A DNA stretch of 21,765 bases from a virus, in the IMG/VR virus record IMGVR_UViG_3300010885_034048, positions 1 through 21,765 of that record. One strand, written 5' to 3'. A program made the translations under genes and the position numbers. Shown one piece after another: positions 1 through 21,287 of the stretch. The notes under the pieces are model-generated. The model had not been told where the DNA came from. It made no database searches and saw only the letters and a list, made by a program, of their open reading frames with translations. Every line of letters starts with the position of its first letter. Position 1 is the stretch's first letter.

Positions 1-986
1 TATTTATCATCCGTAAATGAATATAAAGTTTGGTCTTCCGATATTACATCGACTTTCAATGAACCGGGCTTAATACCTTCTCCTATATAGTTATTTGGAA
101 TTGATACTACTATTGCAGTATCTCCTAAATATCTTTCTTTTGTATCTGGAGAAGTATCATACACATTTGTTTTTTTACCACTTCTTAAGAATGGGTTATC
201 TTCATTATCTTTATAGAATTGAGCTCGTAATTGATGCCAAAGTGTATCTTTTGTAAATTCAATATCTCGTATATCTTGTACACATCTAATACTATACGCA
301 TCATTAATATATCCCGTACTATTTACATCAAATGTAGAACCATCATCTATATTTACCATATCAGCTGTGGTAGGACCGCCAATACCATTTATTTGCGTAG
401 ATGCCCAAAATTTAGCGGTATATCCAAGTTCGGCAAATTCTTGTACACCTGAATCGTAATATCCATCGGGCTTAACATTAAATCCAGTTGTATTAGTACC
501 CTGACCGTTCCCACCAATCCAAAGAGATGTTGATCTTAAACTAGATACTGTTAAATTGTTAGATATTACATAATCATATAATAATTTCCATTCGGATTTC
601 TTTGGTATATGCCAACCCAATGGGGCCAATCCCCTCGGATCGTTTACCGCATACCAGTTATAGAGTTTACCATACACAGGCCCATTAGCAGAACTTCCAA
701 GGTAATAACACCACGCCCCAGAAGTTGTAGTGGATAAATCTCCAGTATCACTTACTTGTGGTATTGGATCTCCATTTCTATAATGAGTTACATCAAGGTT
801 TTTATTCATCCAAGTTTGTGTACCAATTTCTACACTACCATACTGAAATAAATCATACGCAGGTACATCCACACTAGCCGATGCTATTAGTATATCAATC
901 TCACTTGAACTTTCATTAAATGCCCACTCCTTATATGCTTTGAATGGCCTTATTTGTATATCTGACGGTGGTATCTGTTTTAACAT
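1..986 (-). CDS. Phage tail/baseplate structural protein with a nested FISUMP domain (3' end cut by window edge)
   Basis: An open frame runs without a stop from ATG at 986-984 to the left edge, giving 328 codons; the C-terminus lies outside the window. Residues 1-48 (MLKQIPPSDIQIRPFKAYKE at the start) look like a phage structural N-terminus. Residues about 50-237 match the Fibrobacter succinogenes major paralogous domain (FISUMP, TIGR02145): IGTQTWMNKNLDV at 54-66, YGKLYNWYAV at 105-114, GWHIPKKSEW at 124-133, FWAST at 193-197, and the closing YSIRCVQD at 231-238. After it comes LWHQLRAQFYKDNEDNPF (249-266) and a phage-like remainder, so the domain is nested. FISUMP is, from family knowledge, related to the formylglycine-generating-enzyme/C-type-lectin-like fold and common in surface proteins of Bacteroidota and Fibrobacterota. 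A role in receptor or glycan contact is inference. No Shine-Dalgarno precedes the start. The gene lies just downstream of a terminator, so it may have its own promoter. Confidence 0.85.
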   Translation of the reverse strand, partial: MLKQIPPSDIQIRPFKAYKEWAFNESSSEIDILIASASVDVPAYDLFQYGSVEIGTQTWMNKNLDVTHYRNGDPIPQVSDTGDLSTTTSGAWCYYLGSSANGPVYGKLYNWYAVNDPRGLAPLGWHIPKKSEWKLLYDYVISNNLTVSSLRSTSLWIGGNGQGTNTTGFNVKPDGYYDSGVQEFAELGYTAKFWASTQINGIGGPTTADMVNIDDGSTFDVNSTGYINDAYSIRCVQDIRDIEFTKDTLWHQLRAQFYKDNEDNPFLRSGKKTNVYDTSPDTKERYLGDTAIVVSIPNNYIGEGIKPGSLKVDVISEDQTLYSFTDDK

Positions 987-991
987 ATTAC

Positions 992-1001
992 TTATAAATA
1001 T
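992..1001 (-). promoter_or_regulatory. Candidate late-promoter-like motif (ATATTTATAA)
   Basis: On the minus strand this reads ATATTTATAA and lies in the 25 bases between the terminator at 1012-1036 and the start codon at 986. The same core occurs in the gaps upstream of the genes starting at 2997, 9945 and 17425. If the terminator works, the FISUMP gene needs a start signal here, and this is the only motif I see. It ends only 5 bases before the ATG, which is very close for a promoter, so a role in translation initiation is also possible. Confidence 0.3.
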
Positions 1002-1011
1002 CCGTTTAACT

Positions 1012-1036
1012 AAAAACCCACCAATCAAGGTGGGTT
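1012..1036 (-). terminator. Rho-independent terminator after the 415-residue structural gene
   Basis: On the minus strand AACCCACC, a six-base loop TTGATT, then GGTGGGTT form a perfect 8-bp stem (1029-1036 with 1015-1022). The stem runs directly into a T run (TTTTTA, 1016-1011). It lies 22 bases past the stop codon of the gene ending at 1059 and points the same way. This is the only clear GC-rich hairpin with a T tract that I found between genes, so it probably marks a real transcription unit boundary. Confidence 0.88.
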
Positions 1037-9000: not shown

Positions 9001-9945
9001 TATTGTATCTCCACTTGCATTTTGCTTATAACTAGCACCCACTCCTAATAAAGTTCTGTTTGCTAATGCTACTTTTCCTGTTTGAGTCGGACCATATTCT
9101 ACATAAAAATTTGTAGATTTATTATCAGATGTATTTAATATAAGAGCTGATTGCACCACATTATCTTTTGGTGGAATAGGTATATTATTATCTACAGTAT
9201 GCTGTGTTTGTAATTCTCTACAAGTGTTATTATCTTTATTCCAAGTACCACCACGAGATTCACATGCTAACTGCTCTTTTGTAGGTAGTTGTGGTGATGG
9301 TGATTTAATTTTTGGTTTTGAAAATCTAAAACTTAAATTGGCTGTAGCAGGATTTTGTGATATTGGCATTTCATCAACATAAACATAGTCTCCTGTTGAT
9401 TCTTGGTATTCGTATTCTTTTACAAGTACTACTTCTTGATACTTTGCTGTAGCACTGGATTTTACCTTTGCGGTTGATACATCGTATCTTTCTATTGATA
9501 CAACATATTTGTTCAAAGATTGCATACCAGTAATAGTTGCAGTATAAGCCTTTGCAGATCCAAAATTTAAATATGTCCAATTACTTAATGTTACATTAGC
9601 TCCTGACCCAACCGGCTTACCGGCTTCACTAAATGACGCAATTGAAGTATCTGCTGAAATTAAATTAATTTTAATATTTCCAGTTGGAATATTAGCCGGT
9701 ACATATGGTGTATTTATTGGAGTTGTATTTTTTGGAGGCGCTTGCTGTGGAACCGGTGGTATATTTGACGTGGAACTTGTAGAACCGCCACCACCACCGC
9801 CGGCACCACCAGAATCACCATCACCGGTTGTTCCTAATTGCGTGGTCCGAATCCCCGTACCACCCATCGGTCCATCACCGGTTGATCCATTATTTATTTC
9901 CGGTTGACTTGTAGGACCTGTTTGATTTATGAGAGATCTCGCCAT
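3046..9945 (-). CDS. Giant mosaic baseplate/tail protein with gp7/P2 gpI-like, LamG-like and repeat regions, 2299 residues
   Basis: Order of parts: Gly/Ser/Pro-rich N-terminus (1-90); three related beta-rich domains (about 90-215, 255-395, 452-590) separated by Cys-rich linkers (C228-C242; six Cys from 399 to 442); further beta-rich segments (about 600-800); a long middle region; a wedge-like segment around 1328-1373 (NNLPYLLKHKGTRRGIYAIM, then ACYGIP); a LamG-like fold (about 1410-1600, FSGSIDEIRMW at 1549-1559); five 17-residue tandem repeats (1851-1935); and a C-terminal region ending SEPILEVE. The wedge-like segment recalls the P2 gpI/T4 gp7 family, whose genes normally follow gp25 (gpW) and gp6 (gpJ); those two lie upstream here. 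No signal peptide or membrane segment is evident. It probably sits at the baseplate periphery and contributes to host contact. Family assignment of the wedge segment is from memory and moderate in certainty; the rest is descriptive. Confidence 0.85.
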   Translation of the reverse strand: MARSLINQTGPTSQPEINNGSTGDGPMGGTGIRTTQLGTTGDGDSGGAGGGGGGSTSSTSNIPPVPQQAPPKNTTPINTPYVPANIPTGNIKINLISADTSIASFSEAGKPVGSGANVTLSNWTYLNFGSAKAYTATITGMQSLNKYVVSIERYDVSTAKVKSSATAKYQEVVLVKEYEYQESTGDYVYVDEMPISQNPATANLSFRFSKPKIKSPSPQLPTKEQLACESRGGTWNKDNNTCRELQTQHTVDNNIPIPPKDNVVQSALILNTSDNKSTNFYVEYGPTQTGKVALANRTLLGVGASYKQNASGDTIHKLYDNTATFTAETTGLKAMNYFVAQSGIQGNNITWLKVTEYYSNGTGGHYVKNTQSWAMDGLAIYNMIASLTFVFEKPQPIQCGAGTERVGEQCLPICQEGYTRGKDGKCLPIICEPGYKLVNGKCVKVDIVPADDKINYEISFGSNFPELGDKLNLKWSIESIGSKTEIDSGVLNLNLANNNTNGKLISLKTLKESNVYFDIDSKNVPGDYVIKDIYYTPTAVYKNNAVIDFAKWTKTKSGWSIPGATFGSGIAVAVVFEKVIHEKKPELKLPNNRYDIQVKDSDNDKAFNVLFDGIDADYVDVYLSNQNHFRINVDKLKSSSNFVPFSFKKDFGGLYGQKRISLVPYSNKYGTGDKYDVVINFIAVNDFPSITEIIFPNSIDIPSFSDGDIDFNISYNSFAATAVDVDLLAKDKTRISLYKALKNNGSFKLNIKDLSKRYPTWNGNKQITLVFKPYNTAGEHVLVGNEYETTTTVFYPGLQIDETIIRKSIYDAFIDKLSFTEPEKESKYLTHLANFGNDEQVLVSTFEEDNWTLSEKSKDEFGNEIVTNEVKSVILKLYTPLPNEVQVNSTFWVTKLMTNPLIETVILNDEEQLECPPIKGPNFHIDFDFVKGHSTQFESLDSILLDSTNSNDLIKQYLSGSIIDTEDLNIEYASGDIESGSGTLLWENFVHFSSAKERVDNFVYKIQLIENYDTLIQNASSGSQTGSVATQQEIERQTTKKNQLIQGFDGFEKFLYNHSDKYTTATTSSLTWPGYYDKADKIKSKVSSSINDTIGDFFVQDLLMISGVGAYILIDDGIVGDPDLKDGDGIIIDGATISRLNDIFYVKRYFIPGDPITVYNYRIFYDKELTIPVNSTTWGSLSSPSNKIYRKANTTKLYKSTESVVTQWYNNLINEATYYDVNNSNYLINNVPQYILANEENDTYLLFFAMIGHHFDNIYFFTKAIERSRGFGYKAKGGIPDKLLFDTLKSFSWEGINLGSDEDLWMYAFGLDKEGNKVEEKPAKERSKEVWRRIINNLPYLLKHKGTRRGIYAIMACYGIPASNLSIVEFGGPEVDEDPETGAPKGRLIMDNITNAVEMNSKTAIKIPWNAIKSTSYVINKPKNIEIFLNPATSGDYTIISASHWRLDISGAIGSDYGSVKFIKQSDNIAYLTSSIAPLFNGRYFGINLQVTSPDSYAQGCQLELNLIQYSKDREIFNTSDTAYVNYSNPNFSWNSGSYMYIGSGSKGFSGSIDEIRMWNNPFTDSSIFKQHCEFPEMVNGNHASSSTTDLHLRLDFEYAKNLYEKPLLVNVAPNIYYSSSIVRNDLEDGLVSITSGSTIYTSGPWEVTGQTYSASAIGFTNILDYPYQFSQIERTVVLDMPDLGASRYSTNKVRFESQSLVAHLSPDNRSTTKTYDQSPTDSNRVGLFFSPTKELNMDIAKTFGGKNLDDYIGNPSYNYSDSYSELENIRKYYFKRIHGRDIYNYINMIKLYEKALFTDIKKMLPARAHAAVGLLIEPHFLERSKVKHTKPQADSVDPNDTIHIEFEVASENFQKEGLIIYEEKIASENLQKEGVIVYDEVVNSENYQEEGLITYIESITSENLQQDATITYVETITAENNSYDSNVNVNIIDVSSEIELYNTEIKSEIGKGTVIREIDNTPKMVGQSIIEDIGFGLCSDSGSAIRTYYDKDKNLVKERIAVYLVTETKQRTIEKYNTSVNGEGDSRNGLVMTSSFYDETTLSIKKYPTVDNIVQYATATGVFNSGNYAFGSYLHEYRIYPFVNFKWGNDTYKVYSKDYGYASYTDPGSGGSAYRIDIAIQLNADLVNRYDGFRIVKASTSPTSATAANSNPPLQNTWNFTYGRDISGSVFTSNWYDDGLATIQDARSSAESYPSILFNANQGSVGNDYSVLRNPVTTTNGDGLPVVFKPVNGYLPSHNKFTSDLSVGMRNSYYNGCKNTAATTLDGAPPVETFLTNPNALKVNRAGRDISEPILEVE
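4141..4395 (-). repeat. Five in-frame 51-bp (17-residue) tandem repeats in the 2299-residue protein
   Basis: The conserved block (plus strand, such as ttttccgaagcaat) recurs at exact 51-base steps, with the matching C at 4392, 4341, 4290, 4239 and 4188. The protein units are SENFQKEGLIIYEEKIA, SENLQKEGVIVYDEVVN, SENYQEEGLITYIESIT, SENLQQDATITYVETIT and a diverged AENNSYDSNVNVNIIDV. The pattern is SENxQxExxIxYxExIx, with alternating hydrophobic residues suggesting stacked beta strands. A degenerate sixth unit may follow. Copies are diverged at the DNA level, so this is an old protein repeat and not a slippage tract. Confidence 0.92.
5146..5718 (-). other. LamG/concanavalin-A-like lectin domain within the 2299-residue protein
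   Basis: Residues about 1410-1600 show the usual LamG layout: strands around IEIFLNP and WRLDISG, SYMYIGSGSKGFSGSIDEIR with the diagnostic G-x-I-D-E-I/V-R-x-W signature at about 1550-1559, and a late strand LHLRLDFEY. From family knowledge such jelly-roll domains bind glycans or serve as spacers in phage tail proteins. Boundaries are approximate. Confidence 0.75.
8131..9678 (-). other. Three related beta-rich domains alternating with cysteine-rich linkers
   Basis: Residues about 90-605 of the 2299-residue protein hold three similar units. Each ends in a strand followed by a charged turn: LSFRFSKPKIK (about 203-213), LTFVFEKPQPIQC (about 387-399) and VAVVFEKVIHEKKPEL (third). The first is followed by CESRGGTWNKDNNTC (C228-C242). 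The second is followed by a six-Cys stretch (399, 410, 414, 426, 431, 442) with CQEGYTRGKDGKC and CEPGYKLVNGKC modules that look EGF-like. The units appear to be an internal duplication; homology between them is judged by eye. Confidence 0.6.
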
Positions 9946-9982: not shown

Positions 9983-12214
9983 TTAATCACGACTGGTTGA
10001 AACTCTATTAGGGCCGCCACCCGTTGAACCACCTCTAACAGGCATTCCACCATATTGAGTTGCACTTTCGGGGTCATATATTGTACTACCTCCGCCGCCA
10101 GAAGTACTAACTCCGCTTCCAGGTGTACTTGAATCTAATTTATTATGTACCAATATCCCATTAGCATAATAAGTATGGTTTCCTTCAATAGTTAAATTGT
10201 AAGTTTGAATTGGCTCTAATATAATTATAGGGTCGATAGAATGTATTACCACCGTTTCATCGGAAGAGTTTAACACCAAATCGCCATCAACTAATTCAGC
10301 TACTTCCATTTTATGAACCTCTTTTGTTTTTATTGGGTTATATGATGCCCAACCTTTACCCACTACAAATAGAGGGTGATCCGTTGTACATTCTATTGAA
10401 TCGTTATCCAATTCTATTGAAATAATATCGGAACTTATAGGACGAACCAAATCGGTTACTATACCTGCTTCCCGTTGCCCACTTTGCTCATTCCAAGTAA
10501 GAACTTCCATTCCTACTACTACTTCCTCAATTGCTATTTTCGCACCATTTGCGAGCGTTACAATCGTTCCTTCAACAAAGCACCCACCCGTTGTAGTTCT
10601 GGGTGGAGTAGTAGGGGTTCCAGTTGGAGTAGTAGTTGCTGTCTTTGGTGGATTAAACGGACTTGTTGGTAATTTAGGAGGCGTTGGTACTACGTCTGTT
10701 CCATTCAAACCAATTTGCGGCCGTACTATTGGTTGAATAGGTTTTGGTTCTATATCTGGTAATTTTGGTAATGAATTTGTTTGAACATCAACTATGGAAC
10801 ACTCTACATTTTTCATAATGCTATACTCCGATACAGTAAGTTGTGGTGCAGATACCCTAGCCGATACATTAAATATAGATGGTTTTACAGAACTAACATC
10901 GGTTAAACCTGCTGATATAGTATCTATTTTAGCACATAGTTTAGCAGTTGCTCCGGGAGATAATTGTTTTGTAACGGTTGAATTAGCGGAATTAGTATAT
11001 GTAAATAATATTGTTTTAGTTGCTGAATTATTTTTTACACTATATTCATAATATGGTGAATCCGGTACTTTTGGTGTTTGTATTTTTGGAGGTGGTGTTA
11101 TTACTATCGGCTCTTGCTTTGGAGATGTATCAGCATGAACCACCTCAACCATAGGAGTTACATATTTGGGATCATCAAACTTAATATCAACCTTATCAGG
11201 CTGATATACATTTCGTTTAATATCGGTTATTGTGGCAAAGTTTTCCATATTATTTTTACTTTGCTTTGCCAATTCAACTATTTTAAATTCGGTTGCAACA
11301 CCATGTGTATCTATTGAACGTCTTTTTAAATAAGATGAATTAAAATTTATACATTCAAATAATATATGTTCAATTTCAGCAATTATTGGTTTAAAATCAT
11401 ATTGCTCATAATCATCAAATCGTATTTCGGATGGTTTTCCAAAATTTGATTCATTTATATTATAATATTTATTTGTTAAATAATAACCAACGGCAACCTT
11501 AAAATCTTCATAAATTCTATTTCTAAAATTATTAAATTGACTTATACCAAAATCTTTAGCTAAAATACTAAAAAATTCTTTACTAAATTTTGTTTCCAAA
11601 TAGGAATTAACTGTATCATTAAATGAATTTTGAAATGATGTCAGATTATTTAATATAGCTCTCTTATAATATTTAAAATCTTTATTTAAGTTTTTAAATT
11701 TTTCAAAACCAGATTCATTTAATTCATTTATTTTCTGGTCTTTTGTTTTTAATGGTACTATTCTAATTTCTTGCCTTGTAGCTGATATTTCCTGAATCCA
11801 TGCTCTATTTTGCACATCATCACTTCCTATACGGTTACGTGTGAAATTAATATTAACTTTTAAAATACCATTTGAAAATCCTAAATGTTTTAATAGTTTT
11901 TCAATATTAATTGCCAATTCTTGTGTAGCAACCGCCCCACCCAAAGCAACATTTGGTTTAGAAATATTATATAGGTAGTTTTTTATATCAACGGATTTTA
12001 TATAAGCAACATTATTACCATTTGCATGCGGTAATAAATTATTATTAATATCGTATACAGAAACCTCCATGACATCATGCTTGCCTTCGCCAAAATCGGT
12101 TTCTTCAATTTCATTTTTTGTTACAATAAATAAATCTTTTTGACCAATGTATTGCCCTTGATTTTCTTTATCATTACTGATTGAATCAAAGTTTTGATAT
12201 TTTTTTATACTCAT
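9983..12214 (-). CDS. Baseplate/tail-associated protein with an intein-like Hint domain, 743 residues
   Basis: Parts in order: an N-terminal mixed alpha/beta region (1 to about 345; includes ISATRQEIRIVPLK around 145-158); a beta-sandwich-like domain (about 385-475); a Pro/Thr-rich linker (about 481-543); a Hint domain from Cys545 to Asn691; and a 52-residue Gly/Ser-rich tail. The Hint domain begins CFVEGTIVTLANGAKI, has a block B TTDHPLF with T610 and H613, and ends ANGILVHN (His690-Asn691). The next residue is Lys692, not Cys, Ser or Thr, so protein splicing is not expected; N-terminal or Asn-dependent cleavage, as in type-B bacterial intein-like domains, is. No homing endonuclease is present. 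It sits between a coiled-coil protein and the 2299-residue tail protein, so the domain probably processes or attaches a virion component (inference). The N-terminal region resembles unnamed structural proteins of marine myoviruses, from memory. Confidence 0.85.
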   Translation of the reverse strand: MSIKKYQNFDSISNDKENQGQYIGQKDLFIVTKNEIEETDFGEGKHDVMEVSVYDINNNLLPHANGNNVAYIKSVDIKNYLYNISKPNVALGGAVATQELAINIEKLLKHLGFSNGILKVNINFTRNRIGSDDVQNRAWIQEISATRQEIRIVPLKTKDQKINELNESGFEKFKNLNKDFKYYKRAILNNLTSFQNSFNDTVNSYLETKFSKEFFSILAKDFGISQFNNFRNRIYEDFKVAVGYYLTNKYYNINESNFGKPSEIRFDDYEQYDFKPIIAEIEHILFECINFNSSYLKRRSIDTHGVATEFKIVELAKQSKNNMENFATITDIKRNVYQPDKVDIKFDDPKYVTPMVEVVHADTSPKQEPIVITPPPKIQTPKVPDSPYYEYSVKNNSATKTILFTYTNSANSTVTKQLSPGATAKLCAKIDTISAGLTDVSSVKPSIFNVSARVSAPQLTVSEYSIMKNVECSIVDVQTNSLPKLPDIEPKPIQPIVRPQIGLNGTDVVPTPPKLPTSPFNPPKTATTTPTGTPTTPPRTTTGGCFVEGTIVTLANGAKIAIEEVVVGMEVLTWNEQSGQREAGIVTDLVRPISSDIISIELDNDSIECTTDHPLFVVGKGWASYNPIKTKEVHKMEVAELVDGDLVLNSSDETVVIHSIDPIIILEPIQTYNLTIEGNHTYYANGILVHNKLDSSTPGSGVSTSGGGGSTIYDPESATQYGGMPVRGGSTGGGPNRVSTSRD
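10142..10582 (-). other. Hint (intein-like / BIL-type) autoprocessing domain
   Basis: Encodes residues 545-691 of the 743-residue protein. The nucleophile Cys545 follows Gly-Gly, block B carries T610-x-x-H613, and the C-terminal block ends in His690-Asn691. All residues needed for an N-S acyl shift and for Asn cyclisation are present, while the +1 residue is Lys. At 147 residues it is the size of a mini-intein or bacterial intein-like domain. Confidence 0.88.
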
Positions 12215-20657: not shown

Positions 20658-21287
20658 TTAAACTATTTCATATCCTTTTAAATAAAAATCATTTGCTTTT
20701 TTATATTTCACTTCAATAAACTCACCTTCGGGTGATTTCATCATAATCTTTTCATTACGTCCAAATTGGATTTTCTTTTTAACCGTAGTTGAGTATATTC
20801 TATCACGAATCGTAATACCGTCTAAATGGTCAATCTCATGCTGAACTACTGTACACAATAGGGTTTCATCTGAAACTTGTTCTTTATCGCCTGCCATATT
20901 AATTTCAAAATCCAACTCACCCAAATTATCGGTTTGTACTTTTATTTTACTAAAACGAATCGTTCTAATAGGTGATTCCATTGTTTTTGGAATAGATAAG
21001 CATCCCTCATAAAAAATAAATCGTTCATCTGAAGCTTCTTTTATAATTGGGTTTAGTAAAAATAATTGAGTATCTCTAACATTAATAAGACACGCTCTTT
21101 TATTAATACCTAATTGTGTTGCGGCAATTCCCAATCCAGGATATTCCACAATAGCATCTTCTAATGTTTTTTGTATTTCATCAGCTTCCTTTTGAGTAAA
21201 TTCACTTTTAGGAACTGGCGTTTTTAGATATTTACTAAATTCTGGATTAGTAAATCCGCTTTTTGATTTGTCTGTAATTAATTTCAT
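20658..21287 (-). CDS. def: Peptide deformylase
   Basis: Removes the N-formyl group from nascent proteins on the ribosome using a bound metal. All three signature motifs are intact: GLGIAATQ at 51-58 (G-x-G-x-A-A-x-Q), EGCLSIP at 94-100 with the metal ligand Cys96, and QHEIDH at 149-154 with ligands His150 and His154 and catalytic Glu151. The length (209 residues) is slightly above bacterial enzymes (about 170). The extra C-terminal segment, about 165-209, contains KKKIQFGRNEKIMMKSPEGE. Phage-borne deformylases are known from cyanophages and other marine phages, where they may help mature proteins during infection. It starts 9 bases after the UvsE stop and is followed 2 bases later by the membrane protein. 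The enzyme is predicted active. Confidence 0.97.
   Translation of the reverse strand: MKLITDKSKSGFTNPEFSKYLKTPVPKSEFTQKEADEIQKTLEDAIVEYPGLGIAATQLGINKRACLINVRDTQLFLLNPIIKEASDERFIFYEGCLSIPKTMESPIRTIRFSKIKVQTDNLGELDFEINMAGDKEQVSDETLLCTVVQHEIDHLDGITIRDRIYSTTVKKKIQFGRNEKIMMKSPEGEFIEVKYKKANDFYLKGYEIV

Follow-up and report, generated by a model that had tools for sequence, protein, structure and literature searches.

The 21,765-nucleotide stretch of viral DNA analyzed here, positions 1 to 21,765 of IMG/VR record IMGVR_UViG_3300010885_034048 (the window), encodes a 743-residue protein that carries a Hint domain close to its C-terminus. This domain appears catalytically complete and is probably self-processing, and in fold and chemistry it falls into an established type, the bacterial intein-like (BIL) domains. 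Comparison with relatives adds three features to a preliminary description of the window: the Hint is optional, inserted where relatives have a glycine run; Hints of this type turn up in tail proteins of other, unrelated families; and lysine follows the domain as a rule, being the most regular feature of this Hint class. The open-access literature searched (subscription articles, including the original BIL and BUBL papers, lay outside the search) describes neither a phage baseplate or tail setting, nor insertion at a Gly run, nor the lysine rule, and it likewise yielded no characterized baseplate example, in line with the preliminary description. The reading we favor, at somewhat short of even confidence, is that a type-A-BIL-like Hint cassette activates Gly544 as a thioester, that a C-extein lysine is its preferred acceptor, and that Asn691 frees the Hint.

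Inteins and BILs are usually viewed as parasites, toxin processors or signaling domains. If phage tail and baseplate proteins repeatedly carry a Hint under selection, self-processing, and perhaps self-ligation, would join the routes of virion maturation, and these phages may be able to cut their own tail proteins, or join them chemically, with no dedicated enzyme. The lysine rule poses a simple, testable question, namely how the thioester is resolved in a Hint without a +1 nucleophile, and might also yield new tools for joining Gly to Lys without an enzyme.

Identity and nearest relatives of the Hint domain

The preliminary description placed the domain at 10142–10582, with Cys545, T610-x-x-H613, His690-Asn691 and Lys692 at +1, and mapping onto the open reading frame (ORF) reproduces each assignment exactly; a homing endonuclease is absent, as also described, because 147 residues leave no space for one. 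The proposed Hint homology is borne out, well above chance, by hidden Markov model searches, in which PT-HINT PF07591 (2.7e-8, 34.6 bits against a curated cut-off of 27.7) and the intein C-terminal model TIGR01443 (2.8e-7) both exceed their cut-offs, while the Intein_splicing model (1.4e-6) falls under its own. A single-sequence search of the PDB retrieves BIL2 at 7e-10 and the C. thermocellum BIL (2lwy) at 1.8e-7, and a profile of 50 relatives of the window Hint matches BIL2 (6y75) at 1e-30. The fold agrees: an AlphaFold (AF2) model built from 50 relatives has a mean predicted local distance difference test score (pLDDT) of 92, and its top Foldseek match is 6y75/6tmm, BIL2 of Tetrahymena BUBL1 (template modeling score, TM, 0.89; root-mean-square deviation 1.6 Å), followed by 2lwy and then by mini-inteins.

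By E-value the top Pfam match is AXH (ataxin; 1.6e-12), which is judged a fold or sequence cross-match and set aside because the intein, BIL and PT-HINT models span the whole domain with every catalytic residue. AXH (ataxin-1/HBP1) models nonetheless fit Hint domains well, the Hint profile of 50 relatives matching ataxin-1 at 3e-9, and a real Hint–AXH relationship is possible.

By profile and fold, the nearest solved relative is BIL2 of the Tetrahymena thermophila BUBL1 polyubiquitin-like locus (6y75, 6tmm). Both domains lack Cys, Ser or Thr at +1, and RGG precedes the first residue of BIL2 as Gly-Gly precedes Cys545 in the window Hint; BIL2, however, is eukaryotic, lies between ubiquitin-like domains and shares only ~25% identity with the window Hint. 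The Gly-Gly of the window protein follows a Pro/Thr linker, and Pfam found no ubiquitin-like domain. Type A BILs (e.g. C. thermocellum, 2lwy) are mini-Hints with Cys1, TxxH, a C-terminal His-Asn, no +1 nucleophile and no endonuclease, and the window Hint shares these features of sequence and fold: a fold without endonuclease, Cys1 with TxxH, and the defining HN without C/S/T at +1 (PMC4031507). It differs from them in residing in a phage baseplate-region protein and in its pre-Cys1 Gly run and Lys at +1/+2, class features undescribed for BILs in the literature searched.

Other Hint systems are more distant. Pretoxin HINT domains (PF07591), whose model exceeds its cut-off, are also autoprocessing Hints close to the C-terminus, but 13 sampled toxin HINTs have neither Lys at +1/+2 nor poly-Gly before Cys1, and the window Hint precedes only a 52-residue Gly/Ser tail and no toxin domain. 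Class 1 mini-inteins (DnaB, gp41-1) share the fold and catalytic residues; the window Hint differs in having Lys692 rather than Cys, Ser or Thr at +1, and in its insertion into a variable, flexible Gly-rich tail rather than a conserved active-site motif of an essential protein. The Hedgehog Hog domain (1at0) resembles it in fold and N-terminal thioester chemistry, the difference being the C-terminal His-Asn of the window Hint. A second phage Hint type (L197, L204, L208, L246, L261) reads GG-CFVEGT, lacks the terminal His-Asn, ends in a SKHG..TDRIEPVY region and is Hedgehog-like in that its chemistry is limited to the N-terminal half; a Hint of this second type comes after an HN-K Hint within one protein in L054/L197.

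Glycine before and lysine after the domain

The N-terminal family of the 743-residue protein is present in 45 viral contigs, 35 of its copies being complete and 31 of these distinct. The Hint is carried by two of the 31 (L001 and L035), both with Lys at +1, and by a third relative, L002, in which it lies at the contig end. All 29 distinct Hint-less relatives contain a run of 3–8 Gly that starts ~30–60 residues before the C-terminus and is mostly preceded by a Pro-rich linker. Because the 29 of 31 distinct relatives without a Hint all keep this run, the Hint is optional and sits as an insert where the C-terminal tail already had a Gly run, and because most relatives lack it, it cannot be essential to the basic role of the protein family. 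An Illumina adapter (AGATCGGAAGAGC at 9856) occupies the contig end of L002 (L002:9856–9925) and truncates the L002 Hint.

Between the window and L035, the Hints share 90% amino-acid identity and the cores 58%, with synonymous divergence (dS) of 0.67 for the Hint against 1.39 for the core. The nonsynonymous-to-synonymous ratio (dN/dS) of ~0.08 within the Hint fits strong purifying selection. That the Hint was exchanged later, moving as a cassette, is suggested only tentatively, since dS is near saturation.

Hints of the window type also occur in proteins otherwise without detectable similarity to the 743-residue protein, including a relative of the phiJL001 Gp84-type baseplate hub (L212; phrog_2048, 9e-48), a DUF4815/phrog_358 protein (L224), a collagen-like fiber (L051) and a phrog_788 tail protein (L169). 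L103 encodes 222- and 415-residue proteins homologous to the window's neighbors, and its Hint resides in the gene directly upstream of them, not in a homologue of the 743-residue protein. On Flavobacterium chromosomes, small DUF5977-Gly-Hint proteins are encoded beside S74 and repeat tail-fiber genes. Matches in isolated phages are mainly true inteins (helicase, terminase and ribonucleotide reductase genes), and none of these cultured phages turned out to carry the window's cassette.

Several arrangements of these Hints stand out. In two Flavobacterium chromosomal arrays (L068:4763–11486 and L066:859–8788), DUF5977-Gly-Hint proteins alternate with S74 or repeat tail-fiber genes. Three further proteins (L142:2225–4531, L132:1169–3328 and L106:976–3189) contain two tandem Hints each, of which the first ends HN-[FY]K shortly upstream of the Cys of the second, and the second ends HN-K or HN-KK at the C-terminus.

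The residue that follows the domain was counted in two scans blind to the +1 position. The first, of viral sequences with the block F/G motif, yielded among unique Hints 74 with C, 13 with S, 2 with T and 15 with K at +1, and one each with V, G, I and A. In the second, which used GGCFV[E/A/D]GT and was counted by eye, 35 Hints with a terminal Asn are listed, and 19 of them have Lys at +1/+2 and one has Cys, Ser or Thr. When all non-C/S/T Hints are pooled and deduplicated (59 sequences, 30 clusters at 50% identity), Lys occupies +1/+2 in 43/59 sequences and 21/30 clusters, the latter with P ~8e-12 at a background Lys frequency of 7.5%; this pooled count takes in a marine clade with HN-V/A/N, whereas a separate count without that clade found Lys in 51/63. 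Every one of the 37 C-exteins of ≤25 residues holds at least one Lys, even where the whole tail is just K, KK or KV; judged by how often Lys occurs at the C-termini of 782 ORFs, 15.6 would be expected to do so (P ~1e-6 at the level of clusters). Among the controls, Lys occurs at +1/+2 in 1/91 C/S/T phage inteins and in 0/13 polymorphic-toxin HINTs, the latter from plasmid-borne toxins of soil and aquatic bacteria; a Bacteroidota PF07591 survey yielded too few matches. On the opposite side of the domain, positions −1 to −6 most often hold Gly in the Hint class, with Gly at −1 in 38/51 rows. In the marine phage proteins (L056–L065), ~10–15 Gly are followed by CFVEGTP, the Hint ends HN-V/A/N, and each short tail has a Lys near its end.

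Resolution of the predicted thioester

Cleavage or transfer to another nucleophile, the outcome expected in the preliminary description, is also what the intact catalytic residues lead us to expect. Its premise that a Cys, Ser or Thr at +1 is required for splicing is too strict: type A BILs, which have no +1 nucleophile, still splice through a freed amine, with cleavage dominant (PMC4031507). A second case is BIL2 of BUBL1, for which PMC8616854, citing Chiarini et al. 2021, reports a lysine isopeptide product made without ATP and describes the upstream ubiquitin-like domain, with its Gly-Gly end, as being dispensed onto other proteins.

In the favored scheme, Cys545 would attack Gly544 in an N–S acyl shift assisted by T610 and H613, which would turn the Gly-Gly end into a thioester. 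As +1 offers no Cys, Ser or Thr, an amine would most likely resolve this thioester, preferentially the side chain of a C-extein lysine, either Lys692 in cis or the same lysine on an adjacent subunit, and cyclization of Asn691 would release the Hint. The product would be the Pro/Thr-linker-Gly-Gly end joined through an isopeptide bond to the Gly/Ser tail, roughly the tail layout that relatives without a Hint already have in their coding sequence; since 29/29 of those relatives keep the Gly-run tail, removal of the Hint with ligation would restore the normal tail. Passing the Gly544 acyl group on to the amine of a lysine seems the most economical route because it joins BIL2 chemistry with a Gly-Gly at the N-terminal junction and a Lys in the C-extein. 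The scheme builds on the observed fold, catalytic residues, insertion site, recurrence in tail proteins and lysine rule, from which we infer activity, lysine as the acceptor, action in cis or trans and timing in tail assembly. More tentatively, a mobile Gly-Hint-Lys cassette could provide tailed phages with an enzyme-free ligase, in which a ubiquitin-like Gly-Gly end, activated in cis, forms an isopeptide with a tail lysine of the same or a neighboring baseplate or fiber subunit and thereby cross-links or finishes the tail.

Several points weigh against lysine as the acyl acceptor. Nine of the 30 clusters lack Lys at +1/+2. Lysine at +1 may have a single origin, so that part of the Lys signal would be inheritance; the tree of the short Hint domains is poorly resolved, and K+1 needs ~5 changes on it. 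The lysine could also serve catalysis, docking or charge instead of acyl acceptance, and where the protein ends in HN-K or HN-KK, an isopeptide formed in cis would add just one or two lysines, to no obvious benefit. For BIL2, the acceptor is a lysine of the downstream ubiquitin-like domain, at a position not established as +1, and the +1 residue in the crystallized BIL2 construct is Met.

The main rival is plain self-cleavage without ligation, in which thioester hydrolysis and Asn cyclization would cut both junctions and the Hint, with or without the tail, would be a removable cap shed during tail assembly. Cleavage products do dominate in characterized type A BILs (PMC4031507; PMC7664689), and in many relatives the Hint lies at the extreme C-terminus with 1–14 residues beyond it, making removal the main visible consequence. 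We consider this outcome less likely than the favored scheme, as it leaves the Lys in every short tail unexplained and most relatives of the 743-residue protein do without such a cap.

A peptide bond between Gly544 and Lys692 would arise if Asn691 cyclization freed the α-amine of Lys692 to attack the thioester, as proposed for type A BILs (PMC4031507), and would give the same normal linker-GG-tail protein that Hint-less relatives have; any +1 residue would suffice for this route, however, which leaves the lysine rule unexplained and makes the route improbable. Slightly less credence still is given to conjugation in trans, whereby the Gly-Gly thioester would pass to a lysine of another virion or tail-fiber protein and attach the 743-residue protein covalently. 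The reported attachment of the BIL2 upstream domain to other proteins (PMC8616854) and the proximity of Flavobacterium DUF5977-Gly-Hint genes to S74 and repeat tail-fiber genes are in its favor, but no candidate acceptor was identified and the lysine pattern sits in the protein's own tail. A decayed, functionless mini-intein tolerated in a flexible tail would suit the optional presence of the Hint (2/31 distinct complete relatives, plus L002 and the window), its flexible site and its missing endonuclease, yet it is very improbable given the Cys, block B His and HN retained in distant relatives (C and HN partly by selection), the Hint dN/dS of ~0.08 and the recurrence across several unrelated tail families.

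Host protein and neighboring genes

The features of the 743-residue protein are listed in Table 1. An AF2 model of residues 1–500, made to identify the host protein, was poor (pLDDT 59), and a BFVD search with it returned one unannotated phage protein (46% identical), the remaining matches being weak.

Table 1. Coordinates of the 743-residue protein and its parts in the window
Feature	Position	Strand	Basis or remark
ORF, 743 residues	9983..12214	minus	N to C: N-terminal core, beta-domain, Pro/Thr linker, Gly-Gly, Hint, Gly/Ser tail
N-terminal core, residues 1–340	11195..12214	minus	conserved family among phage baseplate-region proteins; ~42–55% identity, 29 relatives
Small beta-domain, residues ~384–482	10769..11065	minus	in only part of the relatives; pLDDT ~90 over residues 390–440
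Pro/Thr-rich linker, residues 483–542	10589..10768	minus	sequence; variable
Gly543-Gly544, immediately N-terminal to catalytic Cys, predicted acyl donor	10583..10588	minus	sequence
Hint domain, residues 545–691 (147 residues)	10142..10582	minus	profile, PDB and fold matches
Cys545, predicted N–S acyl shift nucleophile	10580..10582	minus	Cys in 50/50 rows of the relatives' alignment (partly by selection)
Block B T610-T-D-H613	10376..10387	minus	His in 50/50 rows, Thr in at least 90%; block B not a selection criterion
His690-Asn691, predicted C-terminal Asn cyclization pair	10142..10147	minus	TIGR01443 match; HN in relatives partly by selection
Lys692 at +1, proposed acyl acceptor	10139..10141	minus	Lys at +1/+2 in 21/30 clusters
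C-extein tail, residues 692–743, Gly/Ser-rich	9986..10141	minus	style resembles the Gly-run tails of Hint-less relatives

The baseplate setting given in the preliminary description holds: a gp6-like baseplate wedge protein (phrog_219, 4e-24) is encoded three genes upstream of the 743-residue ORF and gp25 (PF04965, 7e-12) four genes upstream, while a gene for a 2299-residue protein lies downstream. From this gene order the 743-residue protein would be a virion component. At one end of the window (3–1028), the last, cut-off ORF contains a Fib_succ_major domain (PF09603, 1e-38) and is a possible tip protein or adhesin. Elsewhere in the window, the phage encodes a peptide deformylase (20658–21287; PF01327, 8e-24).
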